A stretch of DNA of 64,000 bases from assembly GCF_025950095.1 (NCBI RefSeq), contig NZ_JAPDDR010000002.1:558001-622000 (forward strand), read 5' to 3'. The stretch is from Luteolibacter rhizosphaerae. Its GTDB lineage: Bacteria; Verrucomicrobiota; Verrucomicrobiia; Verrucomicrobiales; Akkermansiaceae. Both the position numbers and the translations under genes were made by a program. The notes beneath the pieces are model-generated. The model saw only the letters and a list, made by a program, of their open reading frames with translations. It searched no databases and had not been told where the DNA came from. Shown one piece after another: positions 2,538-46,217 of the stretch (position 1 is its first letter; every line of letters begins with the position of its first letter).

Positions 2538-3290
2538 TTAGATCGCCAGCGCTTGATTCACGATTTCGTTCAAGCTCCGGCCGCGGAAGTCAAGGTCGGA
2601 GGTCTGGATGCACCGCATCAGCCGGGGAAGTGCCTGGTCGCCGGGTACCAGATCATCGGGCCGATAGACCCCGGAATGCGTCAGTTGCATTCGGATCTCC
2701 GGTGCGTCGAGTTGCTCCAGCAGCCTGCTGAGGATCGCGTCCTCCGAGGACTGCCCCGCGATGGCAGCTAGCTGATCTGGGGTAAGTGCTTCGATGCTTC
2801 TGGCGAACGCAAACTGTCGCGCGGTTTCGGGTTCACTACCGGCCTCCTCAATCAGCGTCAGGCCTTCATCGTGCGGGAGGCCAATCCGAACGAGCAACGA
2901 AGCGGCGACTGTTCCGGTCCGGCCGACCCCGGCGGCACAGTGGATGGCGAGGACGGTTGTCGGGCGGTGAAGAAGGCCGATCAGTCTATCCAGTAGACCG
3001 AGGAACGCCTGGAGATCCCTCGGGACAGACCGATCACGAATCGGGAACTCCAGCCAGCGTTCGCCAAGCTTCGCGGCCTCCAGGAACTCCCGGTAGTCGG
3101 GAGCCTTGCGCTTCCTCTCAGCTTCTCCGGCCAGGCAGAGGACCCAGCCTTCTGCACTGCCCTCGGTCAGCGGTTGCCAGAAGCGGGCGTGATACCCCGC
3201 GGTTCGCCAGTAGCCGGGCATCTCGGTCAGGTATAGTCGGCCGGGGTAACGGGAGGGAAGGGCTACGGGTCGGAATGGAGAACCAAGCAT
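2538..3290 (-). CDS. Cysteine-based protein tyrosine/dual-specificity phosphatase
   Basis: The protein carries the CX5R phosphatase loop HCAAGVGRTGT, the active-site signature of cysteine protein phosphatases. An upstream Asp-containing segment (IRDRSVP) could supply the general acid. Length (~250 residues) suits a single-domain bacterial PTP with a short extra C-terminal region. I chose the ATG at 3290 because a conserved intergenic repeat begins at 3299; an ATG at 3302 would lie inside that repeat. The substrate is unknown. The gene is alone on its strand and its promoter would lie in or beyond the repeat. Confidence 0.8.
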   Translation of the reverse strand: MLGSPFRPVALPSRYPGRLYLTEMPGYWRTAGYHARFWQPLTEGSAEGWVLCLAGEAERKRKAPDYREFLEAAKLGERWLEFPIRDRSVPRDLQAFLGLLDRLIGLLHRPTTVLAIHCAAGVGRTGTVAASLLVRIGLPHDEGLTLIEEAGSEPETARQFAFARSIEALTPDQLAAIAGQSSEDAILSRLLEQLDAPEIRMQLTHSGVYRPDDLVPGDQALPRLMRCIQTSDLDFRGRSLNEIVNQALAI

Positions 3291-3298
3291 GGGAACGT

Positions 3299-3481
3299 CC
3301 ATTCCATCATGGGGCGCAAGCCTGGCTCCGGGGCTTTCCGCAAAGCGGGCGCGCCGTAGGCCAGCCGCTTTGATATACCCAAAGGGAACTTTTACGGAAC
3401 GCGGCGGAAGTCCCGTCGTTCCGGGCTTTTCGGACCTTCTGGAGAGAGCTGGGGCTACGAAAAGCTACTCGGGTTTCGTAG
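3299..3481 (+). repeat. Island repeat element 1: TATACC-N12-TTACGG with flanking hairpins
   Basis: The core motif is at 3374-3397. Arms GCCGC (3364-3368) and GCGGC (3401-3405) bracket it. Immediately after comes CGGAACG...CGTTCCG, and a terminal hairpin CTACGAAA/TTTCGTAG lies at 3455-3481 with an 11-base loop. The left boundary is inferred from homology to element 2, starting at CCATTCCATCATGGGGCGCA (3299). This element fills the gap between the phosphatase (minus) and radC (plus). No gene is seen in 3303-3635. Confidence 0.8.
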
Positions 3482-6413: not shown

Positions 6414-6687
6414 TCCATCATGGGGCGCAAGCCGGGCTCCTGCTCTTTGGACGAAGGGGCTCCGCCGCCAGCCGTTGGTCCGGCGCTTTGATATACCCAA
6501 AGAGAACTTTTACGGAGCGCGCCCGGAAGCCCGTCCTTCCGGGCTACTCGGGCTACTCGGGCTACTCGGGCTACTCGGGCTACTCGGGCTACTCGGGCTA
6601 CTCGGGCTACTCGGGCTACTCGGGCTACTCGGGCTACTCGGGCTACTCGGGCTACTCGGGCTACGAAAAGACGCCCGAGTTTCGTAG
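6410..6687 (+). repeat. Island repeat element 2: TATACC-N12-TTACGG with hairpins and internal tandem array
   Basis: The core is at 6492-6515. Bracketing arms are GGCGC and GCGCC, which differ from element 1 but still pair, a compensatory change. Next comes a strong hairpin GCCCGGAAG/CTTCCGGGC (6522-6544 region), then the 9-base array, then CTACGAAA/TTTCGTAG at 6661-6687. The left part (CCATTCCATCATGGGGCGCA) is shared with element 1. The stretch 6414-6793 contains no convincing gene. Confidence 0.8.
6541..6664. repeat. 9-bp tandem repeat, unit GGGCTACTC, about 13.8 copies
   Basis: Thirteen uninterrupted copies plus seven bases, all identical by eye. Because the unit is three codons long, all frames stay open and yield spurious repeat peptides. 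Element 1 has only a single imperfect counterpart of the unit at the same place, so this looks like local expansion by slippage. The 9-base array should be unstable in copy number. Confidence 0.95.
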
Positions 6688-11515: not shown

Positions 11516-12167
11516 ATGCAGACATCCGCCGCGACCAACTGGGTTTGTTACTACCGGTGCAGCACAGAAGGCCAGGGACGCTCGGGCCTCGGCCTGGAAG
11601 CCCAGCGCTCTACCGTCGCTCACTTTCTGGCCAGCCATCCGGGCGAGGTGATTGCTGAATTCACCGAAGTCGAATCAGGCCGGAAGGCCAATCGTCCGAA
11701 GCTCAAGGAGGCGCTCGGTCTTTGCAGGAAGCGCAAGGCGCACCTTGTGATTGCGAAACTGGACCGTCTGGCGCGCAGCGTCGCAATGATCAGCAGCCTG
11801 ATGGATAGCGGGGTTCTCGGCAGCCGACATGCCGAACGCAACCCGCTTCATGCTGCACGTCTACTCCGCCATGGCAGAGGAAGAGGCCAGATTGATCTCC
11901 GAGCGCACGAAGGCTTCTCTCGCGGCAGCAAAAGCCAGAGGAGTGGTGCTTGGGGAAACCGGCCGCGTTCTCGCGAAGCGACACCATGAGCAAGCGATTG
12001 CCAAAGCCGAGCAATACCGGGAAGTCGTGGAACTCGCCAAGGCTTCCGGGGCCAAGACTACGCGTGATTTGAAGGATTACCTCAATCAGCACGGGATTCC
12101 TTCACCAGGCGACGGCTTGTGGCACATCCCGAACACCCATCGACTGTTGAAGCGGCTGGGCTACTAG
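11516..12167 (+). pseudogene. Small serine recombinase (resolvase/invertase family), frameshifted
   Basis: The N-terminal half is a standard resolvase catalytic domain: nucleophile Ser in YYRCSTEGQ, then GLGLEAQR, and the LVIAKLDRLARSV helix. At about 11810 the frame is lost. The rest continues one frame over with ADMPNATRFMLHVYSAMAEEEARLISERTKASL and a C-terminal helical region ending at 12167. Two or five bases seem to be missing between MDSGV and FSAADMPNA. Either the gene is inactivated or the assembly has an error. Total length (~217 residues) fits a small serine recombinase. A copy of the island motif lies 28 bases downstream. Confidence 0.75.
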
Positions 12168-12194
12168 ATGCTCACCGTAAAATCGGTAAGAGGG

Positions 12195-12257
12195 TATACC
12201 AAGCCTGTGGAATTACGGGGGGCAACGCGTGCGAGATTACTACAGAACACGTAGTAA
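12195..12257 (+). repeat. Island motif copy 3 (TATACC-N12-TTACGG) plus hairpin
   Basis: The core is 12195-12218, preceded by GAGGG. A hairpin TTACTAC/GTAGTAA with a 7-base loop follows at 12237-12257. It lies directly downstream of the small recombinase and upstream of the DUF2637 gene. Its sequence around the core is closest to copy 5 (19135): both read GG-TATACC-A...GGAA-TTACGG. Confidence 0.75.
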
Positions 12258-12320
12258 GGTGGGAAAACAGCTTGGGCCATTCCTGTCAATCGGCGGGTAT
12301 CTTGTAAAGGAGGCCGGTCT

Positions 12321-12962
12321 GTGTTGGAATGCATGCTGATGAATTCCCTCGATCCCGTCCCTGAAGCAATTGGAGCCGTTGAAGCCCGCGAGGAACAGGC
12401 GCTGAAATTGATCGGGCGTACCACCGCTGTGTTGGTTGCATTGCTCGCGGTGAGCGCGTTCGTTCTGAGCTTCGAAGCTCTTCGTGAGCTGGCGGAGCGC
12501 GAGGGAGGGCTTGTGGGACCGGCCTCACTGATGTTTCCGGTAATCGTTGACGGAGCCATCTGCATTTTCAGCCTCTCCGCGCTGCGTGCCGAGCTTGCCG
12601 GTGACCATCGAGACGTCCGCTGGATCAAGGGGCTGGTGCTTGCCGTTACCCTGTCGTCGGTGGGACTGAACACGCTTCACGCTCACGGACGTCCGCTTGC
12701 GATGGTGATTGCAGCAGTCCCCCCGTTGCTGCTCTACGGCTCCCTTGAGGTGCTCCTCCTTCAGGCGCGCCGCCGCTTTGTCCCTGCTGAGGCGAAAGCG
12801 AGGCCGCGCGTTCCGAAGTCGATCCCGAGCCAGTCTGACGTTGAGGAGCGGCGCGAAAAGGCTCTGTCCCTCGCCAAGAAGGGACAGAGCCGTCGTGAGA
12901 TCGCACAAACGCTCGGCGTTTCGGCTGCGACCGTCAGCAAGTATCTTCGGGAATCCGCCTAG
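12321..12962 (+). CDS. DUF2637-type membrane protein with C-terminal helix-turn-helix
   Basis: The GTG start at 12321 is favoured by a perfect AAAGGAGG (12306-12313) seven bases upstream. Residues ~30-150 hold four hydrophobic segments (AVLVALLAVSAFVLSF; ASLMFPVIVDGAICIF; GLVLAVTLSSVGL; AMVIAAVPPLLLYGS), the arrangement of DUF2637/Spd-like proteins of plasmid transfer loci. The tail (REKALSLAKKGQSRREIAQT, LGVSAATVSKYL) is a resolvase-type HTH that closely resembles the protein at 21053-21304. The gene is convergent with the polymerase and shares a CTAG with its stop. A 12-bp perfect inverted repeat lies inside the coding sequence (12860-12891). Confidence 0.75.
   Translation: MLECMLMNSLDPVPEAIGAVEAREEQALKLIGRTTAVLVALLAVSAFVLSFEALRELAEREGGLVGPASLMFPVIVDGAICIFSLSALRAELAGDHRDVRWIKGLVLAVTLSSVGLNTLHAHGRPLAMVIAAVPPLLLYGSLEVLLLQARRRFVPAEAKARPRVPKSIPSQSDVEERREKALSLAKKGQSRREIAQTLGVSAATVSKYLRESA
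12860..12891. other. Perfect 12-bp inverted repeat within the DUF2637-HTH gene
   Basis: GGCTCTGTCCCT and AGGGACAGAGCC are separated by eight bases. In RNA or single-stranded DNA this would be a very stable hairpin. It lies between the membrane and HTH parts of the protein. Confidence 0.8.
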
Positions 12963-15457
12963 ATCCCCGGCATCAGCAGTTGGCCTTCCGGGGCCTCCGC
13001 CTTGTTCGCGGCATATTCGAATAGATCCCCGGCCTTGGAGATCAGCCGATCAGCCTCGAAGGTAGGGAAGAGTCTCTGAAGCCTCTCCAGAAGCCCGGTA
13101 ACCGCCGGGGTAGGTCGTAGACAATGAAGCTTGAGCTGGGATTTAGCCCGCTTGGCGTTCTCCACGTCCGTGAGCTTGAGCGAGAAGCCCGCCGATTCCA
13201 AGCAGTCGAGCAACTGGCGGTTCGCAAGCACTCGCTTGAGCCCGAGTTCCTCGTGTGCATACGCACGAAGGAACAACTTGAGCACTGCATTCTGTTCGGG
13301 GTCCTTTTTCCGGGATCTCTTCAAGCCCGCGGTTCGCTCGATTGCCATGTATCCCTCGAAGTCAGCGAGATCAGATTCGCTCTTCAGCACCCGCTGGTTC
13401 TCCCTTGTGAACGCATGCCAGCTGTCCCTCAGGCGCTGATAGACGGCCGCATTCGGGAGCGGCTGCGTGCGGAACCAGACGTGATCGATACCAAGGATAG
13501 GAGAGGTTCCGCGCTCACTGGTCGGCAAACGCTTCCAATCGAAATCCATCCGGTAGGCGATATGCTGCTTGTACTTCCCCACGTCGAGAGCGCCATCAGC
13601 ATCATGGATTTGACGAAGCGTCCGGAATAGCTCGATCTCATAGCGGTCGTTGCCCTCCCGCTCGATGAAAGTCTTCACGATGAATTCGTTCTGCTCCTCT
13701 TTGTCGGAAGTCGGCGCGCTGATGCCAGCCTTCGCGAGGATGATCCGGAAGCCATCGTAGCCCTCTAGGGTGGCCTGCCCCCGGGTTCGCCAAGCGAGCA
13801 CTTGCATGGCTCGGTGCTTCAGCTTGAGGACTGCATGATCGTCCGCGGAAATGCTGTGCCGGAAGTCACGGAACTTCAGGCCCAGTGGTCCCAGCGCCGC
13901 CGCCATCACCTCCGCTTCGGTCGCATTGCTGATGAACCCGTCTGTGGTTGCCGAAATGACCATTCGGGTTCTCGGCAGGCGATTGATCAGTTCGCCTAGG
14001 AACGCGCGGACCATGCCCGTCACCATGTTGGCGAGGAACGCATTGGTGATCTTGGATGGCGGAAGGTCTTTCATCTGCCCTTCCCGGGTATCGAACACCC
14101 GCTTTCGCTGGAGCCCTTGGCAGAGCTTGCCGTAGATGGAATTCCCGACGGTCTTGCAAAGATGCTCGAAGCACTCGTTCCCGGAAACGCTGTATCGTTC
14201 GCGCAGCCCCGCGATCTCACGCGCCAGCCCGAGAAAGGGGCGTTCCTCCCGCATCGGCATCAGGTAGGCGGTGTCGTTGACGATCTCCATCGCTGCTCCC
14301 AGCCGCCGAGCCAGCTCAATCTCCGGGCTGGTCGCAAAGCTCTCCCCTTGCAGAGGGAAGATCAGCGAAGTCCGGGTTCTGACGGGCAGGCAAGGGAACC
14401 TGACATCATCGGGAAAGCGGAATCTCACCAGCGCCACCCCATAGTGATCCGAGGTGAACTCATCGACCGACCGGGGCACTCGGATTCGATCCCAGTCCGG
14501 CGTCCCTAGGGCACACAACGCAGTCACGTAAGCTCCGTTGATGTCCCAGTCACCCCACTCGTCGATCGGCGAGGCTCCGTAGAAGTAGGTCTCGTTTCGT
14601 CCCCCGTGGAATCCCTCGGTAGCCAATGTGAGGTAATGATGATGCGATTGCATCGGAACCGACTTCCGCGATCCCTTGAAGTTGACGGTCTCCTCGGTTC
14701 CAAGGACCTCGTGGTGAGAAATGCCTGCGGGCTTCCAGCGGGTCTGGACAAACTCGGTCGCAATCTGGCCTAGCGTGAGTGGCAAGTCAGGTGAACCAGT
14801 GAGACTCTTCCGGAATTCGCCCATGCGCTGCAACCAGCGCGCTGCAATCTCCGCATCCCGGATTCCATACGCTTGAAATCGCACTGGGTCGTTCGCAAAA
14901 AATTCGCGCACATTGGAGATTTCCTCCTGCGACACTTCGAGTTTCTTGAGGCCCAGCAAATCCCCCAAGGCCTGAAGCTTGCGGTGCTTATCGGGAGCCA
15001 GAAGGGTGGTGTCGAATACCGACACCTCGATCTTGCGCCGCTTTCCATCCTTGCCCTTGAAGCTGGAGCGAAACGCCTTTCCCAGTGTCACGTAGGTATT
15101 GCGGATCCCGTCGAACTGCGACTTGAGTTTCCTGAAGTCTTGCAGCGAGGTCAGTTCCGCCAGGGACCAATGGATCGCGAGGACGACCCGGGCCGGGCAT
15201 CGCTCCAGAAATCCTTCGTCGAGTCCCTTCTGGATGATCCGGCCCACAACCTCTGCAAGCGTGAGGCGTCGGCCCGGCTCCATGATCTCGATCCATTCGT
15301 AAGGGTTCGGGTTGCTCAGCACGTAGCCCTGATAGGATACGACATCATTCTTCTCTGCTCCGGTGACATACTCCGAATCGAGCCCGCAGATCAGGTCGTC
15401 TCCCAGGAGATCGTTAAGTGTGTAGCTGCGGGACGGCTTGCGTGTGGTTGGTTTCAT
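12959..15457 (-). CDS. Stand-alone family B DNA polymerase (DNA_pol_B_2-like) with 3'-5' exonuclease motifs
   Basis: The 832-residue protein has the family B motifs in order. Exo I is LDSEY near residue 27 and Exo III is YGIRDAE near 200. Polymerase motif A is DINGAYVTAL near 305, motif B is KTVGNSIYGKLCQG near 440, and motif C is SATTDGFI near 504. A KLKHRAMQVLAW segment after motif C fits the KxY region. The layout resembles protein-primed or primer-independent polymerases of mobile elements and organellar/viral polymerases rather than chromosomal Pol II. Start is the ATG at 15457; a TTG at 15466 is possible. It is divergent from the 482-residue gene and convergent with DUF2637. Which PolB subgroup it belongs to cannot be settled by eye. 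Confidence 0.85.
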   Translation of the reverse strand: MKPTTRKPSRSYTLNDLLGDDLICGLDSEYVTGAEKNDVVSYQGYVLSNPNPYEWIEIMEPGRRLTLAEVVGRIIQKGLDEGFLERCPARVVLAIHWSLAELTSLQDFRKLKSQFDGIRNTYVTLGKAFRSSFKGKDGKRRKIEVSVFDTTLLAPDKHRKLQALGDLLGLKKLEVSQEEISNVREFFANDPVRFQAYGIRDAEIAARWLQRMGEFRKSLTGSPDLPLTLGQIATEFVQTRWKPAGISHHEVLGTEETVNFKGSRKSVPMQSHHHYLTLATEGFHGGRNETYFYGASPIDEWGDWDINGAYVTALCALGTPDWDRIRVPRSVDEFTSDHYGVALVRFRFPDDVRFPCLPVRTRTSLIFPLQGESFATSPEIELARRLGAAMEIVNDTAYLMPMREERPFLGLAREIAGLRERYSVSGNECFEHLCKTVGNSIYGKLCQGLQRKRVFDTREGQMKDLPPSKITNAFLANMVTGMVRAFLGELINRLPRTRMVISATTDGFISNATEAEVMAAALGPLGLKFRDFRHSISADDHAVLKLKHRAMQVLAWRTRGQATLEGYDGFRIILAKAGISAPTSDKEEQNEFIVKTFIEREGNDRYEIELFRTLRQIHDADGALDVGKYKQHIAYRMDFDWKRLPTSERGTSPILGIDHVWFRTQPLPNAAVYQRLRDSWHAFTRENQRVLKSESDLADFEGYMAIERTAGLKRSRKKDPEQNAVLKLFLRAYAHEELGLKRVLANRQLLDCLESAGFSLKLTDVENAKRAKSQLKLHCLRPTPAVTGLLERLQRLFPTFEADRLISKAGDLFEYAANKAEAPEGQLLMPGI

Positions 15458-15570
15458 CGACGCCAACGCACCCGTTTCCGCGTTGCACGGCGACGGGCCC
15501 TTACCGGCAGGTCCGCCCGAAATGGCCTATGTTAGACTTCAATCACTTATGAAGATTCCGAAAGCCCGAT

Positions 15571-15607
15571 TTGGTTAGGGCTTGACAAGCTAATATAATG
15601 CAGCCCT
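15571..15607 (+). promoter_or_regulatory. Sigma70-type promoter with overlapping 6-bp dyad, near-leaderless transcript
   Basis: TTGGTT (15571-15576), a 17-base spacer and a perfect TATAAT (15594-15599) place the transcript start near 15606, about five bases before the ATG at 15611. No Shine-Dalgarno sequence could fit. AGGGCT (15577-15582) and AGCCCT (15602-15607) form an inverted repeat around the -10 box and could be an operator. Confidence 0.6.
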
Positions 15608-15610
15608 ATT

Positions 15611-17059
15611 ATGCTTGATTATTCCCAATTCGTTCCGCGCAAGCCCTCCTCCGAAATCTCCACCCCCGCGCTGCTTCTCCCCCAACGTTTCGAGGTCGTG
15701 GGCGGGTTCAATCCTGACGGATTCGACATGGCCGCTGCCGAATGGCATCTCCGGAAGACTTTCGTCCAAAACGGACTGGTCGGGATCATCCATGGTCTGT
15801 TCGGGATCATGCCCAGCAATGCGGATGTTCTGAAGAACCGTGAATTCGTGGAGAAGCTCGATGAGATGGAACCTGCCACCGACGATGAAAACGATCGTCT
15901 TGCCGGGGGTGAGCCTGACAAGTGCGACGGCGACGACGGCCCGACTCGCAAACAGGTTCCGTATGGGTTGTCTCACAGTTCCTTGCCTCTCCCGCTCCAG
16001 GGAGTGGACTTCGACGAAGCATTCCTCCTCGCGGCGCGCGCTATCCACGAACAATACAAGGCTGCTCTCAACTCCACGATCCTTGCCCGCCAGAATAAGG
16101 CGCGCAATGCGAAGGGAAGCGGACTCATTGAATTCGCGAACCGCTACGGCTTCCTTGGGGGCGAGAAGGCACTCAACCGCGATTCGCTCTTCTACAATTT
16201 CGCGGTAATTCGCGCGGTCGATGCGATTCGTATCCTCCGCAAGGCCGGCCGCCTCACGCTCAGCGCCAATGCGAACAAGGCGATCGATGGACTCATCGCA
16301 AAGGACGAGGAGGCCCTTTCCCCACAGGCTTTCGAGTCGTCGACCCGCGAATGGAACTACGTGGCGTTGGAGCAGATCGTCCAGTCTTTCGGAATCCCGG
16401 TTCTCGTCCTTCTGGAGAAGTGTGGCACGCCCGGACGGAAGAAGCGCGGCACCGGTGATCTGAAGGGCCCGGTCATGGAGGGCCTCAACCGCCTTCTCAT
16501 TGATTCGCTCCAGCCCTGCTCCAAGGAAGCCGTCGCCAAGTATCAGATCGAGGGGGTCGTGGACAAGTTGCTCGATGGCTCGCGCTCCGAAACCGAGGAG
16601 GAACGCATCCGCCGGGAGGCTGCTGCCACCAAGTTTGAAGAGCTGCGCAAGAAGGGCTTCGTGTTGAACGTGAAGGAGGACGCAGCACGCGAAGAGCGCA
16701 TCGAACGTCGCAACGCGGTCGAGAACCTCAAGGAGTTGGTTCTGCTTGTTGGCTGGCAGCTCAGCGATCCGGCGCTCGACGGAATTGGTTTCGGCGAATG
16801 CGACGAGTTCTGGGCTCGCGAAAGCAAAAACAACAAGCCGAACGAGGAGTCCCTCCTTCCCAGTTTCCTCAAGGGCCTCAAGCGCAGCTACGTGAAGCTC
16901 GCATCCAAGGCGGACGATGTGTTCGCCGGCCCGCCCGAAAGCCCCCAAGAATCGAAGCCGGTCTTCTACAATGACTTCTTGATCGCGGATGCATGGCTTC
17001 GCGACCTCAAGGATTTCGAGGTCGAATCGAGCTTCTGGAACAAGGAGCCTGCCGCATAA
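15611..17059 (+). CDS. Hypothetical 482-residue protein divergent from the DNA polymerase
   Basis: No family recognised. The N-terminal ~50 residues are followed by an acidic linker (EPATDDENDRLAGG) and then a mostly helical protein with charged segments (for example EEERIRREAAATKFEELRKK). No signal peptide or membrane segment is seen. It sits between the polymerase and the large serine recombinase, has its own strong promoter and terminator, and by position is a candidate replication or accessory protein of the element. A protein-priming or DNA-binding role is possible but nothing in the sequence proves it. The 512-codon antisense frame over the same region is a shadow. Confidence 0.7.
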   Translation: MLDYSQFVPRKPSSEISTPALLLPQRFEVVGGFNPDGFDMAAAEWHLRKTFVQNGLVGIIHGLFGIMPSNADVLKNREFVEKLDEMEPATDDENDRLAGGEPDKCDGDDGPTRKQVPYGLSHSSLPLPLQGVDFDEAFLLAARAIHEQYKAALNSTILARQNKARNAKGSGLIEFANRYGFLGGEKALNRDSLFYNFAVIRAVDAIRILRKAGRLTLSANANKAIDGLIAKDEEALSPQAFESSTREWNYVALEQIVQSFGIPVLVLLEKCGTPGRKKRGTGDLKGPVMEGLNRLLIDSLQPCSKEAVAKYQIEGVVDKLLDGSRSETEEERIRREAAATKFEELRKKGFVLNVKEDAAREERIERRNAVENLKELVLLVGWQLSDPALDGIGFGECDEFWARESKNNKPNEESLLPSFLKGLKRSYVKLASKADDVFAGPPESPQESKPVFYNDFLIADAWLRDLKDFEVESSFWNKEPAA

Positions 17060-17073
17060 GCGCCAGAGGTCCA

Positions 17074-17120
17074 ACAGAGGCCAAATCGGGCGTACGGTCC
17101 GGTTTGGCCTCTGTCGTTTT
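17074..17120 (+). terminator. Rho-independent terminator of the 482-residue gene
   Basis: ACAGAGGCCAAA (17074-17085) pairs perfectly with TTTGGCCTCTGT (17103-17114). The 17-base loop can pair further, and CGTTTT follows. It begins 15 bases after the stop codon. Confidence 0.85.
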
Positions 17121-17231
17121 CGAGACACATCCTCTTCAAGCTTGGGGGTGAAATTGACAGCAATTCCCTCTTCATGTTGCGATGTCGGGTTGATCCCGCA
17201 TCAAAGCCCCCTCATTCAGAGCCCCGCGAGG

Positions 17232-19013
17232 GTGCTCCGTTGCGCGACCCTCGTCCGAGTCTCCACCCAGGAACAGGCCGGATCTGATCGTGCAGGCCTC
17301 GACCGCCAGCGGCAGGCTATCGCGCGCGTCGTTGCCGATAAACGCTACGAGGTTGTTTCGGCAATCGAGCTGATCGATGTGAGCGGCACCTCGATCCTCC
17401 ATGCTCCGGAGGTAACACACCTGATCGAGAGGATCGAGAACCGCGAGATTGACGTGTTGTTGGCGAGCGAGATGTCGAGAATCATCCGCCCGGATGACCT
17501 CTCGTCATTCGGGTTCCTGGAGACCTGCCGCCGACACGGCGTGGTGGTCGATCTCGGAGGCACGGTCCACGACTTCGATTCGCCCGAAGGCTTCCTCAGC
17601 GGAGGGATCCTGGCGCTCCTCGGAGGTCATGAGCGCATGCAGATGCTCCGCAGGATGATGGCGAGTAAGGAAGCCAAGAGAGCCCGCGGAGAGAATCCAC
17701 AGAGTCGCATCACACTGCCACTCGGAATCGACTATGACCGCGCCGCAGCGAAATACGGCTATAACGAGCGGATCATTAGCGTGATCGAGGCGTTCCGTCT
17801 GGTGGACGAAGAGGGAATCCGGAACTTGTCTGAGGTCGGACGTCGCTGCGGGATTCATCAATGCAACGTGAGGAACATCCTGCGGAACGAAATCTACCGC
17901 GGTGAACGGGTCTATTCAAAGTTCCGAGACCAGTCCCGCAAGGGAATCAAGGCCACGGGTCGGCAGGGTGATCGTCCCAAGATCGCCCGACCACCCGACC
18001 GGGTGATCCGCGTCCGCGTCTTCACCGTCGAGGAGCAGGCCGTATCGGATGAACGGTTCGAGCGAGTCCAACAGGTCCTCCGCGGAATCCGCGAGAACCA
18101 TGAGGTGTTCGTGGCCGAGCGGCACGAAGGGAACCTGCTTTCCGGTGTCGGGAGGTGCGGGTTCTGTGCCGAGCGCCTCTATGCCAAGCGGCGGACTCCG
18201 CGGCTTGCAAACAAGTCTCCCACGAAGGGCCATTACATCTGCCGGTCCGCCCATGAATCGACCAAGGGCAAGCTTGGCCACGGCAAATGCAAACAGGGCT
18301 GGGTGCGGAAGGAGGAACTCGATGAGCTGACGGAAGCGTTCATCACGAAGTTCCTCGCCGATCCCGGCTTTGTGAAGGCGGTCCTTCAGCAAGCACGCGA
18401 GAAGCAGGCGGGCAAGGTTCTGCGTATCGACCTTGGGGCGTCGGTGAAGGATCGACTCGCTGACATTGAGCGCCGCGACAAGCGGGTCCTTGAGGCAATG
18501 GAGGAAGGCTTGCTTTCGATCGCGGAGGCGAAACAGCGGCGGCAGAGGCTTGCGGATGAGCGCGCGGGCTTGATCAAGGCGCAGCAAGTGAATCGCGAAG
18601 ATCAGCCCGAGGTCCGGGAACTGGAGGGGATTGCAGGGGCGGTGTCCAAAGGACTCGAAGGATGGCCTGTGGAAGGAACGGTGAAGGAGAAGAAGGCGTT
18701 CCTCGCAAAGATCTTCTCGGAGATCTACTTCCAGCGGGGAGCTATTACCGCATTCCGTCTGGCTCCAGGGCTCATCGGAAGCGCCTCGGGGGCGTGGAGC
18801 TTCGCCGCCGACATGCCCGTCGCGATTGATCCGCCGGTCTGCCTCAAGGTTCCAGAACCGGAAGTCGAAGTGCCAGAAGGAATGAAGCGATGCTCCAGGT
18901 GCCGGGAGGTGAAATCGGTGAGCGACTACTATGGGAAGTGGGCAGCATGCAAACGCTGCACCAACAAGGCGTCCGCAGCCCGCTACCGAAAGAAGCGGGC
19001 TGAACGGGGGTAA
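17232..19013 (+). CDS. Large serine recombinase (site-specific integrase)
   Basis: About 593 residues from a GTG at 17232. The catalytic Ser is in ATLVRVSTQEQ near residue 10, followed by AGLDRQRQAI and an SRIIRPDDLSSFGF helix. The 'recombinase' DNA-binding domain includes NVRNILRNEIYRGERVYSK. A zinc-ribbon domain has CGFCAERLY near residue 310 and further Cys. A coiled-coil stretch spans roughly 400-480. The C-terminus adds an unusual second metal-type cluster (CSRCREVKSVSDYY, CKRC). An upstream GTG at 17148 is an alternative start. Large serine recombinases integrate and excise elements between attP and attB sites, usually next to the gene; two island motif copies lie 25 and 122 bases beyond its stop. 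Confidence 0.9.
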   Translation: MLRCATLVRVSTQEQAGSDRAGLDRQRQAIARVVADKRYEVVSAIELIDVSGTSILHAPEVTHLIERIENREIDVLLASEMSRIIRPDDLSSFGFLETCRRHGVVVDLGGTVHDFDSPEGFLSGGILALLGGHERMQMLRRMMASKEAKRARGENPQSRITLPLGIDYDRAAAKYGYNERIISVIEAFRLVDEEGIRNLSEVGRRCGIHQCNVRNILRNEIYRGERVYSKFRDQSRKGIKATGRQGDRPKIARPPDRVIRVRVFTVEEQAVSDERFERVQQVLRGIRENHEVFVAERHEGNLLSGVGRCGFCAERLYAKRRTPRLANKSPTKGHYICRSAHESTKGKLGHGKCKQGWVRKEELDELTEAFITKFLADPGFVKAVLQQAREKQAGKVLRIDLGASVKDRLADIERRDKRVLEAMEEGLLSIAEAKQRRQRLADERAGLIKAQQVNREDQPEVRELEGIAGAVSKGLEGWPVEGTVKEKKAFLAKIFSEIYFQRGAITAFRLAPGLIGSASGAWSFAADMPVAIDPPVCLKVPEPEVEVPEGMKRCSRCREVKSVSDYYGKWAACKRCTNKASAARYRKKRAERG

Positions 19014-19037
19014 GACTCCGTCGGTCCCCGTCATTGG

Positions 19038-19120
19038 TATACCCTTTGTACGATTTTACGGCGAGGTGGCTTCTTCGGCAGATGAACCCGGTCAAAAACC
19101 TCCTACGGTGCGCACCGTAG
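19038..19120 (+). repeat. Island motif copy 4 plus perfect 18-bp palindrome
   Basis: Core TATACC-N12-TTACGG at 19038-19061, starting 25 bases after the serine recombinase stop. At 19103-19120 lies the perfect palindrome CTACGGTGCGCACCGTAG, matching the CTACG/CGTAG hairpin arms of other copies. The palindrome could also act as the recombinase gene's terminator, although it lacks a T-run. Confidence 0.75.
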
Positions 19121-19134
19121 AACCCCGGTAAGGG

Positions 19135-19158
19135 TATACCATGGAGACGGAATTACGG
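19135..19158 (+). repeat. Island motif copy 5 (TATACC-N12-TTACGG)
   Basis: Exact core spacing, 97 bases after copy 4 in the same orientation. Flanks (GGTAAGGG before, GGAA before TTACGG) resemble copy 3 at 12195. No CTACG-type hairpin was found downstream. Confidence 0.7.
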
Positions 19159-19322: not shown

Positions 19323-19901
19323 CTAGTCGAGGATCGAGACCTCGATCCTGGCGTAGCCGACGGGATCGTAGGGCTCGTATTGGTACGGTGGCTTGTGCGA
19401 GACATCCAGCGTTTCCACCTTGTGGCCGTTGGCGGGTTCCTTGACTCCTAAGACGATCTGGAGAGGTCTGCCCTCGCTATCGCGGAATTCGTCGAACGGA
19501 ATCCCGAACATCGGGTCATCGATTGTAACCCACACGATGTTCTCGGCAGATGGAGAGACCGGCAGCGAGTCAATCAGCCCGGGGTCTCCTGGCACAATCG
19601 CAATCGTACCACACGCATGCGGCTGGAACTCCCACCATCCGTGGAGGTAGGTGATGATGTAAGTTGCCATCGTGGAGAGTTCCAGCGGACCATCTCCGAC
19701 CCACCAGACGCTGGATGGCTCCTGCGCCTTCTTGGCCGCCTCAGCCCTAGCCTTGTATTCGGCGACGCCGAGCCGGCCGAGCGATTCAGACTGGTCATCA
19801 AGAAGGCTTTTCCAGTCGTTTCTCTCATAAAGGAGGATCCAGAATTCGGTCGGGCTGAGTGGCTTGGGGGCCCGCGTCTTGCGGGGATATTTTCTTTTCA
19901 T
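19323..19901 (-). CDS. Hypothetical protein, tandem paralogue A
   Basis: The 192-residue protein starts with a basic segment (MKRKYPRKTRAPK) and continues PTEFWILLYERNDWKSLL. It shares an aligned core with the protein at 20187-20789: a Trp-rich segment before 'FQPHACGTIAIVPGD', then 'LPVSPSAENIVWVTIDDP', then 'EGRPLQIVLGV' and a Tyr/Pro-rich C-terminus. I recognise no named family. It has its own terminator and about 245 bases separate it from the upstream paralogue, so the two are probably separate transcription units made by duplication. Confidence 0.7.
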   Translation of the reverse strand: MKRKYPRKTRAPKPLSPTEFWILLYERNDWKSLLDDQSESLGRLGVAEYKARAEAAKKAQEPSSVWWVGDGPLELSTMATYIITYLHGWWEFQPHACGTIAIVPGDPGLIDSLPVSPSAENIVWVTIDDPMFGIPFDEFRDSEGRPLQIVLGVKEPANGHKVETLDVSHKPPYQYEPYDPVGYARIEVSILD

Positions 19902-20141
19902 GTCTTACATTTCGATTTGAAGATCCGTCTGGCCCGGCGTCGTGCCGGGTTGCAGGGCGGAGTTGGGCGCAAATACAGGGGAGAGCTCCTGGTATCCAAA
20001 GGGGCCTAAATGGCGGTGCTGCCGCTTTTGGCATCTCCCATTTCACGGGGAACCTCCGTCGGTGGAGGCAAGTCATCGGCCTGAGTTTACGAGGCCCGGA
20101 TACCTCGCTCCGCGAGGAGGATCGCCCATTTCCTCTCCTCC

Positions 20142-20175
20142 AAAAATGCCCCCGCTCCGAAGTCGGAGCGGGGGC
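20142..20175 (-). terminator. Rho-independent terminator for the minus-strand gene at 20187
   Basis: On the minus strand, a 13-bp stem GCCCCCGCTCCGA with its complement closes a two-base loop and is followed by ATTTTT. It starts 11 bases past the stop codon. Its design is very similar to the terminator of the paralogue. Confidence 0.9.
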
Positions 20176-20186
20176 CGAGGCTCCTG

Positions 20187-20789
20187 CTACAGCGAGGTAA
20201 ACTTCACCTTCTCGTAGCTCATCGGCCGGTAGAGAGGAAAGCCTTTCACGACCTCGTCAAAAGGATTCCAAACCGGATCGCCCGCATGGCCGTCCTCCTC
20301 TCCCACTACTCCGAACAGGACCTGGAGCGGGAAGCCCTCGTCATCGACGTAACGCTCCACAAGCGGAGCCGTCTTAGGGAGGTCGTCGCTCGTAATCCAC
20401 ACGAGATTTTCCGTACACGGGGAGATCGGAAGATCGGCGATGTCGGTGACGTTGCTGCGCACTACTGCGATTCCTCCGCACGCGTAGGGCTGATAGTTCC
20501 ACCAGGCGTCGAGAAAATCGATCGCAGTCGCCACGTCTCCCGAAATGCTCAGTGGAGGACCGAAGGACGGATAGAACACCCCGGAACGTCCCTGCTTCTT
20601 CTTCGCCTTTTTGGTGTGCTCTTTCACCTTCTGGTTGCCGTGCTGCGCCAAGCGTCCCTCCTGCATGATCATCACTCCCTGCCAGTCCTCCCGGGTATAC
20701 ATGAGGAAGAGGAACTTCGCTGGATGATGCATTCCGAGTGCGGTCTTGGGGTCGTACTTTGCGAACAGATTATGAGTCCTGTTTTTCAT
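20187..20789 (-). CDS. Hypothetical protein, tandem paralogue B
   Basis: The 200-residue protein aligns with the gene at 19323: HPAKFLFLMYTREDWQGVM, then WWNYQPYACGGIAVVRSN, LPISPCTENLVWITSDDLP, and EGFPLQVLFGVVGEEDG. A lysine-rich helix (HTKKAKKKQGR) sits between the first and second blocks. Divergence of the pair is substantial, so the duplication is not recent or the two arrived separately. Function unknown. Both genes sit between island motif copies 5 and 6, with nothing else in that interval, so they may form a cassette. Confidence 0.7.
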   Translation of the reverse strand: MKNRTHNLFAKYDPKTALGMHHPAKFLFLMYTREDWQGVMIMQEGRLAQHGNQKVKEHTKKAKKKQGRSGVFYPSFGPPLSISGDVATAIDFLDAWWNYQPYACGGIAVVRSNVTDIADLPISPCTENLVWITSDDLPKTAPLVERYVDDEGFPLQVLFGVVGEEDGHAGDPVWNPFDEVVKGFPLYRPMSYEKVKFTSL

Positions 20790-20941: not shown

Positions 20942-20999
20942 AGGGGCTCGTTCCCAATGTGCCGAGCGAATGACCGGCTCAGTCGATCCGTGCCTATGG

Positions 21000-21023
21000 T
21001 ATACCCTTATGCCGATGTTACGG
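21000..21023 (+). repeat. Island motif copy 6 (TATACC-N12-TTACGG)
   Basis: Exact core spacing. The spacer reads CTTATGCCGATG and is closest to copy 4 (CTTTGTACGATT). It lies 30 bases before the small HTH gene. No clear CTACG hairpin follows. Confidence 0.7.
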
Positions 21024-21052: not shown

Positions 21053-21304
21053 ATGCGGTTAGAAACCATAGTGAACTCACGGGCACGACCGGCAACCCCG
21101 GCAACGCGGAAGCCGCAGCCGAAGGTACTTCCTTTGGCAAGGAAGGCCCTTCCCTTGGCCTCGAACACCGAAGCCGGGGCAAAGCGCGCGAAAGCCCTGG
21201 AGCTGGCCGGGGAAGGGCTCTCGCAAGCACGTATCGCGCGAGAGTTGGGCGTCTCGGCCGCGACCGTTTCCCGCTGGCTCGGGAAGGGCTCGAAAGCCGC
21301 CTGA
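21053..21304 (+). CDS. Small helix-turn-helix protein
   Basis: The ATG at 21053 follows GAGGAAGGA at ribosome-binding distance and gives 83 residues. The N-terminal half is basic and Pro/Ala-rich; the C-terminal half is an HTH (AKALELAGEGLSQARIAREL, GVSAATVSRWL) of the resolvase/Hin type. It closely resembles the HTH tail of the DUF2637 protein at 12321, suggesting a shared ancestor or shared operator. The longer upstream frame (from 20846) crosses the motif copy and poly-G tract and is not credible. Confidence 0.65.
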   Translation: MRLETIVNSRARPATPATRKPQPKVLPLARKALPLASNTEAGAKRAKALELAGEGLSQARIARELGVSAATVSRWLGKGSKAA

Positions 21305-21351
21305 ACGCGTTGATTCGTTGACGGCGTGCCGTGGTTTGTTAGAGCGCGGCC

Positions 21352-21699
21352 GTGAACACGATTGTAGTGAGGCCGAGCGAACGACCAAAGGTGCTGGAAC
21401 AGGGCAAGCTGTCCTACGAGCAGATCAAAGCGGAAAGGGTTGCTCCCGGATTCATCGCCTCAATTTCACGGGCCAACTCCTGCGGGCAGATCATCGTGGT
21501 CAAAAGCGACGGCACCCAGGCGTTCGCCGCACCAATCGAGTCGGTAGTCGCGTCCGACATGAAGGGAGCCGCCACCCGGGCTTCGATCTCGTTCGGTAAG
21601 CCAACGCCGATTAAGGAAGGAAGCATCCCCGGGGTGGTGTCAGGCATTCGTTGGAACCAGAAGAACCTTCGGTACCTGGACGTAGAGCAGCTCTTCTGA
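21352..21699 (+). CDS. Hypothetical protein, 115 residues
   Basis: It starts with GTG at 21352, 47 bases after the small HTH gene on the same strand. The sequence is soluble, with alternating strands (SCGQIIVVKSDGTQAFAAPIE, SVVASDMKGA) that suggest a small beta-rich fold. No family was recognised. It lies just before motif copy 7 and probably forms a two-gene cassette with the HTH protein. Confidence 0.5.
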   Translation: MNTIVVRPSERPKVLEQGKLSYEQIKAERVAPGFIASISRANSCGQIIVVKSDGTQAFAAPIESVVASDMKGAATRASISFGKPTPIKEGSIPGVVSGIRWNQKNLRYLDVEQLF

Positions 21700-21780
21700 G
21701 GGAGCCCCTCCCGCTGCGGAGGTCTGCGGGGGAGCCGGGAGAGCGACCGGCTTTTCCCGGCCGCAGCTACGCCCCTCTGA

Positions 21781-21867
21781 TATACCCAAAGGGAAAGGTT
21801 ACGGAGGCTCAAACCACGGGGCTTCTCGGCCCTTCAGAGCTACGAAAGCAGCCCTTTTCTTCGTAGC
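21781..21867 (+). repeat. Island repeat element 7: TATACC-N12-TTACGG plus hairpin
   Basis: Core 21781-21804. The hairpin CTACGAA (21841-21847) / TTCGTAG (21861-21867) follows. It belongs to the same subfamily as elements 1, 2, 8 and 9 (TGATATACCCAA before the spacer). It lies between two plus-strand genes. Confidence 0.8.
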
Positions 21868-24250: not shown

Positions 24251-25495
24251 ATGGACGCAGTTTATAAGGTATGGCAAACCCTGTGGATCCCCCTCAGTTG
24301 GCCCTTCACCGTTGCTATCATCATCCTCTGCCTCGCCGACCTGACAACCCACTACGTCAAGGAGGGCCGCCACCATAGGCAATTCACGGGCCTCATGACA
24401 GGACTGGGAATCCTGGGAACATTCTTCGGCGTGGTAGTGGGTCTTCAAGATTTTGACACCTCGAACATCGGCCGGAGTATTGGGCCGCTTCTGGAGGGGC
24501 TGAAGGTCTCATTTGCCACGTCGGTAGCTGGTATCCTCGCTTCTGTATTCACCGAAGTGGTAGAGCGGGCCTTTCCCGCTAAGCGTGCAAAGCTGGGCGA
24601 CCCGGTGGCAGACTCCATCAACCAGCACATGCTGGATCTTTCGGAGCTAATCGCCGCGGCAAAGACTGCCAACGAAAGTGTTGCCAACAATGTCGCGGGC
24701 CTTCGTACTGAGATGCGGGACGAAGCCCGCGCCGTCCGCCAAGTAATGGAGAGTGCGCTTGAGAAGCTTTCGAAGGGGGCGACCGAGGAGATTATCAAAG
24801 CGCTAGAGGATGTGATCCGGGACTTCAACCGCAACCTTACTGAGCAGTTTGGAGAGAATTTCAAGCAACTCAACGAGGCTTGCTTGCAGCTGGTTGTGTG
24901 GCAGAAGGACTTCCGAGACTCGGTGATCTCTGCAACCCAAGCCATAGATGCATCGCGATCGGCGATTGTAGCTTGTCGTGAGCAATTCGAGGCCGCCCTT
25001 CCAAAACAGCAAGAGTTTCTCGGGGTGGTCGAAAACGTAGGGCTGAGCGTCAAGGCGCTGGCTGCACTCAACGACCGCCTTGCCTCTATTTCAAGCCAGC
25101 AGGAATTCGTGATCGAGAAGCTTCACGCAGGCTTGGTTCAGATTCAGGGGGAAGTTACCAAAGCTGGCGAACACGTGAGATCGGAGGCTAGTGCCGTATC
25201 AGCCAAGAATCAGGAAATGCTAGGCGCATACGCGCAGTTGTCAGCAAAGGTTGAAGAATCGCGCAGAGGGGTAGAAGCTATGTTGCTTGAACACGCCCGC
25301 GGTCACAAGGCGGTGTCGGAGAACATTGATGACGTTGTCCGCAAGCTGGGATCCGGCAACACCGAGCTGCAGGGGCATCTCGGTCAGTCTCTACGCCAGC
25401 TTGAAACTGCGCTTACGTCCCTCACCGCGGATTTCGGACGAGCTTACAGGTCCTACCTTGACGGCATGAGGAAGCTCACTGGCGCATCGAACTAA
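24251..25495 (+). CDS. zorA: Zorya ZorA: MotA/ExbB-like inner-membrane motor subunit with long coiled-coil tail
   Basis: The N-terminus has transmembrane segments at residues ~12-30, ~48-68 and ~90-108, with the MotA/TolQ-like signatures TGLGILGTFFGVVVGLQDF and LLEGLKVSFATSVAGILAS. From about residue 130 to 400 the protein is a long helical, Glu/Ala/Gln-rich tail, as in ZorA, where the tail projects into the cytoplasm. ZorA and ZorB form a proton-driven motor in the inner membrane that senses phage infection and activates cytoplasmic effectors. The ATG at 24251 is five bases after a CTCCCC stretch; the gap to zorB is five bases. Confidence 0.85.
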   Translation: MDAVYKVWQTLWIPLSWPFTVAIIILCLADLTTHYVKEGRHHRQFTGLMTGLGILGTFFGVVVGLQDFDTSNIGRSIGPLLEGLKVSFATSVAGILASVFTEVVERAFPAKRAKLGDPVADSINQHMLDLSELIAAAKTANESVANNVAGLRTEMRDEARAVRQVMESALEKLSKGATEEIIKALEDVIRDFNRNLTEQFGENFKQLNEACLQLVVWQKDFRDSVISATQAIDASRSAIVACREQFEAALPKQQEFLGVVENVGLSVKALAALNDRLASISSQQEFVIEKLHAGLVQIQGEVTKAGEHVRSEASAVSAKNQEMLGAYAQLSAKVEESRRGVEAMLLEHARGHKAVSENIDDVVRKLGSGNTELQGHLGQSLRQLETALTSLTADFGRAYRSYLDGMRKLTGASN

Positions 25496-25500
25496 TCGGT

Positions 25501-26325
25501 ATGTCGAGGCAAAGCAGCTACCTCAGCAGCGTGTCTGATCTCATGGCAGGTCTGATGATTGTGTTTCTCTTCATAGCGGTCAGCTATATGATCGAGGTTC
25601 GCTCTGGGCAGGCAGTGGCAGAGAAGAGAGCCGACGATCTCCAAGTCGCCCTAACCTCCGTGTCAGAAGAACGCCAGCGTTCTGAAGATCTGAACCGCCA
25701 GCTCGAAGAGCAAAAGGGCGAACTGCTCCGCACCAACGAGAAGATAAAGGAGATCGCGGCTACCTACTCCGAGATCCAGAATTCCCTCTATACCGACCTT
25801 CAGGCGGAGTTTCGTGCGGATCTACCCCGCTGGAATGCCACTTTGGAAAGAGACAACACCATTCGGTTTAATGAACCCGAAGTTCTATTCCAAACCGGTC
25901 AAGCCGACATTCGCCCCCGATTCCAGACCATCCTGAAGGACTTCTTTCCGCGCTACCTCAAGATCATTTACAAGGGACAGTTCCGAGACGAGATCGACGA
26001 GATCCGAATCGAAGGACATACCAGCTCTGTTTGGAAGGACGCGACGTCGAAGCAGGATCGTTACCTAAAGAACGCGCAGCTGTCGCAGTCTCGCGCCCTA
26101 CAGGTCTTGGATTTCTGCTTCGGCCTAGATCAATCGACGGACCAACGCGACTTGCTGATTCGGGACCTTCGCGCAAATGGATTGTCGTTCGCTCGTCCGA
26201 TATTCAATCCACAAGGCAAGGAAGAGGAAGATCGGTCTCAGCGAGTTGAGTTTAGGGTCGTTACCAAGACGCGGGACCGGATCCTCAAGATCCTTGAGGC
26301 TGGCGACGAGCAGCCTGAGAAATGA
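25501..26325 (+). CDS. zorB: Zorya ZorB: MotB/OmpA-like peptidoglycan-binding stator subunit
   Basis: The single N-terminal transmembrane helix carries the proton-conducting Asp (SVSDLMAGLMIVFLFIAVSY). A coiled-coil stretch follows (residues ~40-100). The periplasmic OmpA-like domain has FQTGQADIRPRF, EIRIEGHTSS, NAQLSQSRALQVLDF and SQRVEFRVV. Length of 274 residues fits ZorB. Its stop overlaps the next start (ATGA at 26322-26325). Together with ZorA it forms the membrane sensor of the Zorya anti-phage system. Confidence 0.88.
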   Translation: MSRQSSYLSSVSDLMAGLMIVFLFIAVSYMIEVRSGQAVAEKRADDLQVALTSVSEERQRSEDLNRQLEEQKGELLRTNEKIKEIAATYSEIQNSLYTDLQAEFRADLPRWNATLERDNTIRFNEPEVLFQTGQADIRPRFQTILKDFFPRYLKIIYKGQFRDEIDEIRIEGHTSSVWKDATSKQDRYLKNAQLSQSRALQVLDFCFGLDQSTDQRDLLIRDLRANGLSFARPIFNPQGKEEEDRSQRVEFRVVTKTRDRILKILEAGDEQPEK

Positions 26326-27164
26326 GCAGCTCGCTGACAGACTTTGCGAAGCTGCGTCTCGTCGTGGAGCAGCTTGGTGTCGACTGGGACGAACAGACCC
26401 GAGATCGGCTCTCGGTATTGTGGGACGGTGAAATTATCAGCAGCCGAGCGGAACTGATTGTCACGCCAGGCGGTCTTCTCGACATCCTGCCCGACGGCAA
26501 TGTCATCAGGGTAGTGGTCCATGCTCCACAAGGGCCCTATCAAGGCAGGGGCATTGCCGAAGCGCTCCTGATGGAAGACCCTGTCAGCGGATGGCACAAG
26601 ATCCATGTGCTGTGGTGCAAGACCGTTGATCAATGGCAGAAGAGGCTTCGAAAGACTAACCGCAACGACGGCAAGTTTACCTATCCTCTTTTTTGGCGTG
26701 ACGGCCGGGAGTTTCGTCCTGAGCTGCGCGACGGAGGCAGGCCCCTGCACCTCTGCCGAGTCTGCGCCAAAATGCTTTCAGCGATTGGAGTGGTCGCCGA
26801 ACCGAGCCGCTTTGATGTTCGCGAGTTCCTTGCCTCGCACACTGTTGGCGGGCTCTTCCGTGGCGTCTCGACAACCTCGGATTTTGACCTGGTTCCGAAT
26901 GTCTACAGCGCCGCCTGGCCCCAGATCAGTGCCAGCTTCAAGTCGCTCAGGGGGTGGACCTGCGAACGTTGCTACCGGAACCTATCAGATCACAAGCATT
27001 TGCTTCACGCGCATCACCGGGACCATCACAAGGCAAATAACAGTATCTTCAACCTCCAAGCCCTTTGCATCCGCTGCCACTACCTGATGCATCCGGAGAA
27101 CGCAGCTTTTGGGGCTTCGGCCGATCTGGCCCAGTTCGAAGCGTTGTTTCCAGGATGGTCTTGA
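26322..27164 (+). CDS. zorE: Zorya type II-like effector: HNH nuclease (ZorE-type)
   Basis: The 280-residue protein ends in a clear HNH zinc-nuclease domain: WTCERCYRNLSDHKHLLHAH, HRDHHKANNSIFNLQALCIR and CHYLMHP. The N-terminal 190 residues are of no recognised family and include LCRVCAKML. In type II Zorya the motor genes are followed by a single HNH gene (zorE) instead of zorC/zorD, and this gene order matches. It overlaps zorB by four bases, so stoichiometric co-translation is likely. I assign the type by gene order and effector class, not by alignment. Confidence 0.8.
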   Translation: MSSSLTDFAKLRLVVEQLGVDWDEQTRDRLSVLWDGEIISSRAELIVTPGGLLDILPDGNVIRVVVHAPQGPYQGRGIAEALLMEDPVSGWHKIHVLWCKTVDQWQKRLRKTNRNDGKFTYPLFWRDGREFRPELRDGGRPLHLCRVCAKMLSAIGVVAEPSRFDVREFLASHTVGGLFRGVSTTSDFDLVPNVYSAAWPQISASFKSLRGWTCERCYRNLSDHKHLLHAHHRDHHKANNSIFNLQALCIRCHYLMHPENAAFGASADLAQFEALFPGWS

Positions 27165-27766: not shown

Positions 27767-28059
27767 ACTTGTTTATCTAACACTGGTGGATTCTGGTCAA
27801 TTCGAGAGAGGGGGAAGGCTACCACGGCCCCTTTCACTAGACTACTTCTCTCGCGGCCTCCGAGAGCCCTTCTTGCCTGTTACGGCCCAGGCGGCGACCT
27901 GAGACCCTTCTCCTTCGTCGGAAGCGCTCGGAGAGACCACCGAAAGCAAAGGAAACCTCTACGACAACAGAACCGAGCCAGCGGCAGCCTCGGTCGAGAA
28001 CCCCGGCCTGGGCGAAGAAGGGGGGCGAGCGCTGCCTCTCCGTCGCTCCGCGCCCCTGA

Positions 28060-28145
28060 TATACCCAAGTGGCAAAGTTACGGAAGCCTCGCGGGAGGAG
28101 GTGGAGAAGCCTCTGGAGGTTACGAACGCACAGGTGTGCTTCGTA
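28060..28145 (+). repeat. Island repeat element 8: TATACC-N12-TTACGG plus hairpin
   Basis: Core 28060-28083; hairpin TACGAA-C-GCACA / TGTGC-TTCGTA at 28121-28145. It sits in an 850-base stretch (27767-28618) that otherwise holds only one doubtful short frame (28261-28461) and the promoter region of the OLD gene. Confidence 0.8.
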
Positions 28146-30400: not shown

Positions 30401-30732
30401 AGGCTTGCCTTCAGCTTTTGAAACCGAGCTTCGAAAGCATCCAGTTCCTTCCGCTTAGCTGCGATAACCCCATCGAGCTTCGACAGCTCCGCCAGGACTC
30501 CGCTTCGCCCGCCAGCCGCGGACTTAGCTCCCTTGCGGCCGTTGCCCACTGAAGCTCCGCCGCTGCTCTTTACCCATGCGGAGATCGTGAGGGCACTTGT
30601 TCCAAACTTCTTTACCGCGGCGGTCACTCCTCCGCGGCCGTTCGCTTCGTTGTGAGAATTCACGAAGTCGACAACGGATTGCTTTTCTTCAGCAGTGTAC
30701 CGTTTCCCTTTGGTTGTTTTCTTGGCGGCCAT
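30397..30732 (-). CDS. Small basic protein with transposase-like HTH and coiled coil
   Basis: The ATG at 30732 gives 111 residues. The first half reads KGKRYTAEEKQSVVDFVNSH, then GGVTAAVKKFGTSALTISAW, an HTH pattern like that of IS3-type transposase OrfA or related DNA-binding proteins. A Gly/Ser/Lys linker follows, then a heptad-rich helix (LAELSKLDGVIAAKRKELDA). It could be a regulator of the neighbouring defence genes. It overlaps the OLD stop by four bases on the opposite strand. Confidence 0.6.
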   Translation of the reverse strand: MAAKKTTKGKRYTAEEKQSVVDFVNSHNEANGRGGVTAAVKKFGTSALTISAWVKSSGGASVGNGRKGAKSAAGGRSGVLAELSKLDGVIAAKRKELDAFEARFQKLKASL

Positions 30733-30866
30733 GAGGTGAGTCTGTCGCCCCTTTCTGTAATTATACAAGTAAGCGTTTCCGATTGGCAACCGGGCTGGAG
30801 GCAAAAGACTTCAATGCTATTGGCTGGGGTTAAGGGTCGGGTGTCCTCGAATCTTTGGCAGCGGGA

Positions 30867-33146: not shown

Positions 33147-33157
33147 TCTGGTCCGGG

Positions 33158-34492: not shown

Positions 34493-34498
34493 GGTCGT

Positions 34499-45919: not shown

Positions 45920-46193
45920 TCGGCAAGATTGGGAGTGCGTGACTCTAACGACTTTCAGCGACCGAACTCAAGGCATTGATCGACCTGCCTGCTAGCGCTT
46001 CGGCGGCCAGGCGGTAGCCCGCTGGACTCCTGGCGCTCCTATGGGCTCTCCCGCTTCGAAAGCGTTCCTCTGGCATCAGAAGGCCACTACGGGTGCCGAC
46101 GAAGGTGGGCAGAGGCGGCCGAGCGCGGGTGGCTTTTTCGCAGGCGAGCAGAGCGCGATCGGCTGGGAGCGCTCCGCTCCCGCGCTCCTTTGA

Positions 46194-46217
46194 TATACCC
46201 AAGTGGAAGAGTTACGG
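46194..46217 (+). repeat. Island motif copy 9 (TATACC-N12-TTACGG)
   Basis: The last copy in the window, preceded by CTTTGA and with spacer CAAGTGGAAGAG, almost the same as copy 8. The downstream hairpin is degenerate: a CTTACGAAG at 46253-46262 lacks a clear partner. The gap 45920-46372 otherwise contains no gene. Confidence 0.75.

Follow-up and report, generated by a model that had tools for sequence, protein, structure and literature searches.

The block at positions 12197-19039 of the window (64,000 nucleotides, bases 558001-622000 of contig C2 in a 6.2-Mb draft genome, G000, from the phylum Verrucomicrobiota) is very probably an integrated pipolin-type element that is moved by its large serine recombinase (LSR), copied as a circle by its piPolB and capable of reintegration. 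Since its DNA polymerase (PolB) belongs by homology to the piPolB family and the att sites are hybrid in all four units bounded by inverted site pairs, the element is an LSR-integrated, serine-integrase variant of the pipolins and not a new kind of self-replicating element. An integrative unit of ~6.8 kb, bounded and equipped with PolB and LSR, is what the initial annotation had described, and this description stands, the third and fourth copies of its motif being structured like the ends of such a unit.

Organization of the element

Only four genes, all open, lie between the two 44-bp site copies, in agreement with the initial annotation in number, coordinates and content, whereas the orientation has to be corrected, as PolB runs opposite to the other three. 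Specifically, a protein with a DUF2637 membrane domain and a helix-turn-helix (DUF2637-HTH; 12321..12962, + strand) is encoded convergently with PolB (12959..15466, - strand), which is divergent from the gene of a 482-aa protein of unknown function (15611..17059, + strand), and the latter is followed by the LSR (17190..19013, + strand), whose ORF opens at 16989 and whose start is likely the TTG at 17190. The LSR, the integrase of the element, has Resolvase, Recombinase and zinc-ribbon domains, with the catalytic serine in VRVST, and its relatives in viral contigs are only ~24-34% identical. Neither a tyrosine recombinase nor Cas1 is found among the four genes.

The search for the same block in other genomes, suggested in the initial annotation, recovers the module made of PolB, the divergent 482-aa homologue and LSR in four copies in three related genomes, with the same internal order: the unit in the window (S6), a second copy on the same contig (S14, C2:634587-645027) and one copy each in G006 (C18:30415-41238) and G050 (C1:4009108-4017150). 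The DUF2637-HTH gene accompanies the module in S6, S14 and G006, and an intact small resolvase in S14, G006 and G050. The window unit has DUF2637 inverted relative to PolB and the resolvase outside, which counts against the proposed explanation. The same is true of the G050 copy, for which a flanking site pair was not found; it has a single palindromic site (L105:8538-8581, that is, G050:C1:4013537-4013580; symmetry 16/22) between the 482-aa homologue and the LSR, which is like an unrecombined attP in a chromosome.

DUF2637-HTH matches Pfam DUF2637 (8.3e-18) and the excisionase family phrog_733 (5.9e-22) and stays next to the LSR in a relative that lacks piPolB. Because it tracks the LSR and not the polymerase, and because of the excisionase match, it is the best candidate for a recombination directionality factor, or may be a regulator. 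In each of the four copies the gene of the 482-aa protein precedes that of the LSR and diverges from PolB, and the protein is a possible replication partner. A profile search detects no relative of it in the piPolB loci of other bacteria or in the genomes of the other relatives, and its AlphaFold model is meaningless (pLDDT 38).

The polymerase, its recombinase partners and their proposed exchange

PolB (835 aa) has intact exonuclease and polymerase motifs, with TTDG in motif C, and its catalytic motifs align with those of its relatives, including GGRNE and TTDG, both common to the whole relative set. Its Pfam match is weak (DNA_pol_B_2, E 0.26), its PHROGs match is a DNA polymerase (1.5e-10), and searches of PDB sequences with PolB and LSR were uninformative. 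The protein can be aligned with the pipolin enzyme of E. coli over its entire length. The E. coli homologue occurs in 292 of 5426 complete genomes, chromosomal in every case, lies near tRNA-Leu with two tyrosine recombinases in the one genome examined, and is matched internally by both published piPolB PCR primers (PMC7385651), with one and zero mismatches. Full-length homology, the match of the published primers to the E. coli gene and the aligned motifs identify PolB, at the level of homology, as a member of the piPolB family, for which primer-independent synthesis is predicted.

When an alignment of five relatives was used as query, 89 relatives in 80+ genomes were confirmed, with 27-40% identity over most of the length, whereas a single-protein scan of genome contigs gave no match. 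The best 80 of the 89, which were kept, are mostly from Pseudomonadota, including E. coli, Aeromonas, Vibrio and Ruegeria. Plasmid matches come from Staphylococcus, Fusobacterium and Pseudosulfitobacter, and no relatives were detected among viral contigs or phage records. Moreover, a homologue is present in a relative of the same order (G127) and in a Verrucomicrobiia MAG contig (L088), presumably one and the same contig.

Integrated pipolins encode tyrosine recombinases (PMC7385651), and among 82 piPolB rows 50 have only tyrosine recombinases nearby, eight only an LSR, two both and 22 neither, where neither refers to the stretch covered, some contigs being short. In the PolB phylogeny, the check that had been proposed for the polymerase, the window protein falls inside the piPolB family in a Verrucomicrobiota clade of six (SH-aLRT 98), composed of the window PolB, the second copy in the same genome, those of G006 and G050 and two from Spartobacteria, and an LSR is present in 6/6. 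The claim of a type distinct from pipolins is not supported, since PolB is nested in a family with tyrosine-recombinase neighbours in 50/82 rows; nesting in a known mobile family with another integrase, named in the initial annotation as a refuting outcome, is half true of it. The PolB-LSR pairing is kept in the four module copies and the two Spartobacteria loci, and two other Verrucomicrobiota relatives (L023 and L025) have tyrosine recombinases. The association of piPolB with tyrosine recombinases is, hence, not obligatory, and the polymerase can be part of a serine-integrase chassis.

LSRs also lie near piPolB in Mesorhizobium erdmanii (L102:5354-7198) and in a Methylotenera MAG (L066:10013-11641); these and a few betaproteobacterial-type loci are probably separate recruitments. 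Small serine resolvases homologous to that of the element are found near piPolB in many alphaproteobacterial pipolins (L026, L027, L031, L037, L038, L039, L043, L048, L049, L059 and L068).

The replication genes vary as well. LSRs 56-59% identical to that of the window occur without piPolB in G015 and G004 (L135, L137), where two other proteins take its place in both genomes, a primase (phrog_2597, 2.9e-22 and 1e-19) and a putative helicase, the G015 version of which has a match to the helicase-like domain DUF5906 (2.5e-12); G015 also has DUF2637-HTH (63%) and the resolvase. These loci strongly suggest the same LSR chassis with exchanged replication genes. A weaker case is G114, of the same order (L136:2455-10329), in which a distant LSR (31%), a small resolvase and a family A DNA polymerase may represent the same chassis with another polymerase in place. 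Among relatives, the serine-integrase chassis has a primase-helicase, and possibly a family A polymerase, where piPolB stands here, an exchange that supports the view that mobile-element polymerases serve one common step, the copying or completing of excised or incoming DNA.

Attachment sites and proposed mechanism

The motif of the initial annotation proves real, with 17 half-site matches in the window vs 0.14 expected (pattern GGTATACC-N7-CG-N3-TTACGG, up to 3 mismatches), and a two-armed 44-bp site, CCGTA(A)-N-GGTA/TACC-N-TTACGG, made of two 22-base halves about GGTA/TACC or GATA/TACC, describes it better. Genome-wide there are 18 half-site matches, all within C2:547785-650662. Among the 145 genomes scanned, zero-mismatch half-sites occur only in G000, G006 and G050, the three PolB-bearing genomes of the family, and none in the other ~140, which do not rise above the reversed-pattern control.

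The left site of the element is at 12175..12218 (+ strand; CCGTAAAATCGGTAAGAGGGTA/TACCAAGCCTGTGGAATTACGG, with the predicted crossover AT at 12196-12197) and the right one at 19018..19061 (+ strand; CCGTCGGTCCCCGTCATTGGTA/TACCCTTTGTACGATTTTACGG). In units bounded by inverted pairs the outer halves are alike and the inner halves are alike, but outer and inner halves are unlike, so that, the halves being of two kinds, the sites are no longer interpreted as simple inverted repeats. When reassorted, the halves give a near-palindromic attB and attP in 4/4 units: the symmetry of attB and attP (of 22) is 18 and 14 in S6 vs 11 and 10 for the sites as found, 15 and 15 vs 12 and 10 in the mini-element S8 (see below), 18 and 19 vs 10 and 14 in S14, and 14 and 16 vs 11 and 11 in G006. 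Over the 26 inner bases, parental vs hybrid half-site pairing in the four units is 15 v 4, 14 v 6, 19 v 8 and 15 v 7, and the summed difference of 38 exceeds the largest null value of 23 (sd 6.25), the null being random-DNA half-sites that ignore the common family of all sites, for which reason the count excludes arms and core. Because of this reassortment into near-palindromes, the sites match the expectation for the attL and attR of a serine integrase and, judged by their letters, look like such hybrids. The reconstructed attB (5'-CCGTAAAATCGGTAAGAGGGTATACCCTTTGTACGATTTTACGG) and attP (5'-CCGTCGGTCCCCGTCATTGGTATACCAAGCCTGTGGAATTACGG) are ready-made substrates that make the mechanism directly testable.

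In the mechanism proposed, crossover by the LSR between attL (12175-12218) and attR (19018-19061) would take place at the central AT, with the likely help of an element-coded directionality factor, for which DUF2637-HTH is the best candidate. Excision would restore a near-palindromic attB in the chromosome and yield a 6.84-kb circle with attP beside the LSR gene, on which piPolB would start primer-free DNA synthesis and copy the element, perhaps with the help of the 482-aa protein, before the circle enters a further attB-like site. The 100-kb region would have received such insertions repeatedly, from related LSR elements as well as from non-autonomous passengers and defence cargo.

Surrounding array and alternative explanations

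Over ~100 kb, twelve further sites are P/B' hybrids, eleven of them in one orientation and bracketing defence systems; the one in the odd orientation, at 634587, forms the left end of S14, whose right end is at 644984. In the window, sites of this type (all + strand) are at 3354..3397, 6472..6515, 21761..21804, 28040..28083 and 46174..46217. A complete Zorya type II system (ZorA2, ZorB2 and ZorE2; 24251-27164) lies between the sites at 21761 and 28040, the latter forming the right boundary of its segment, and an OLD-family nuclease with Shango-like SngC, SngB and SngA (28619-38077) between those at 28040 and 46174, while a PDC-S06 candidate is just past the last array site. The array offers a natural record of the collection of defence systems at one chromosomal place. 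As side observations, three paralogues (~75% identical) are each directly left of an array site (window 2538-3302; C2:547158-547778; C2:627739-628374), and a short in-frame tandem repeat (GLLGLLGLLG) is just right of the site at 6472 (window 6475-6687).

It is conceivable, but only tentatively so, that the array is integron-like, with one kind of site whose segments excise as one-site circles and reinsert in the same orientation, PolB-LSR being the engine and the defence systems the cassettes. The eleven same-orientation sites and the defence systems between neighbouring sites are consistent with this, as is a UvrA-like gene that forms a whole segment ending at an array site (G000:C2:547964-550627, L015) and has a 96% identical counterpart that also ends at a site in G006 (C25, L111). 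Moreover, two left segments that differ from each other precede one and the same right flank (38/38) in G006, the change occurring at the core; these junctions are contig ends at which, in an assembly check, the contigs fork after a 93-95-base overlap. The same junctions also support the proposed LSR-based mechanism. The prevailing order of the array sites is direct and not inverted, an arrangement that attL x attR excision of the ordinary kind leaves unexplained and that counts against that mechanism. Against an integron-like array, all its sites are P/B' hybrids, pairs of which serine integrases normally do not recombine, the array partly resembles ordinary tandem duplication and divergence, and only LSRs and small resolvases, and no other recombinase, are linked to the sites. 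A similarly tentative reading is an integron-like defence island run by an LSR element family of the Verrucomicrobiota, in which the replication module (piPolB, primase plus helicase, or family A polymerase) can be swapped and defence cassettes are assembled and rearranged between the sites. The UvrA-like gene is an odd repeated passenger, with a relative, 65% identical to that of the array, also beside the LSR in G114 (L136:10532-13075).

A once mobile remnant, now dead or domesticated and accumulating by duplication only, is rather unlikely. Such a remnant would explain the frame-shifted small serine resolvase just left of the third site (11516..12167, + strand), which is intact and within the element elsewhere and is left from an older element of the same family, and the truncation of that element, whose right end consists of a DUF2637 C-terminus and a 115-aa gene (21096..21699, + strand) and the array site at 21761. 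It would also agree with the unchanged neighbours of the S14 and G006 copies and with the failure to find an excised circle of the window element; an empty site was likewise not found, the neighbour-gene search giving no clean one, nor a second close copy, the nearest PolB being 48% identical; these negative results also weigh against the main explanation. However, the window unit retains an intact PolB, an intact LSR and intact sites, and it is nested inside the remains of the older, S14-like element together with the adjoining 1.9-kb mini-element S8, which has a left site (19115..19158, + strand), two paralogous orphan genes (192 aa and 200 aa; 19323..20789, - strand) without a recombinase, and a right site (20980..21023, + strand). 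With unit and mini-element inside it, mobility therefore outlived the older element.

Lastly, it is most improbable that the sites bind a replication, partition or regulatory protein and that PolB and LSR are neighbours by chance, a reading that suits the palindromic core and arms and the many copies in one region, but not hybrid halves that reassort into palindromes, segments that break at the core, or the conserved PolB-LSR pairing.

Comparison with known systems

The LSR-moved element shares with pipolins (PMC7385651, PMC9710591) the whole-length piPolB homology, an integrase gene, att-like sites and defence or restriction cargo nearby. It differs from the published descriptions in having an LSR and not a tyrosine recombinase, an earlier report of an LSR-bearing pipolin being possible, and in having no tRNA target, no tRNA gene being present in the window. 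Where pipolins have terminal direct repeats, often in a tRNA gene, its att-like sites are two-armed palindromic hybrids in inverted order, and its host belongs to the Verrucomicrobiota, outside the Actinobacteria, Firmicutes and Proteobacteria named in PMC7385651.

With SCC/SCCmec islands (PMC10061031), which follow the same chassis design with exchangeable replication genes and have an enterococcal counterpart (PMC6222049), the element has in common an LSR with flanking att sites, an own polymerase or primase that varies by member, degenerate terminal inverted repeats and composite tandem islands; it differs in phylum and in the use of piPolB in place of the PolA-SSB primase. Casposons (PMC4046053) are likewise integrated elements with their own family B polymerase, but are integrated by Cas1, whereas a serine recombinase is present here and the PolB is of the piPolB group.
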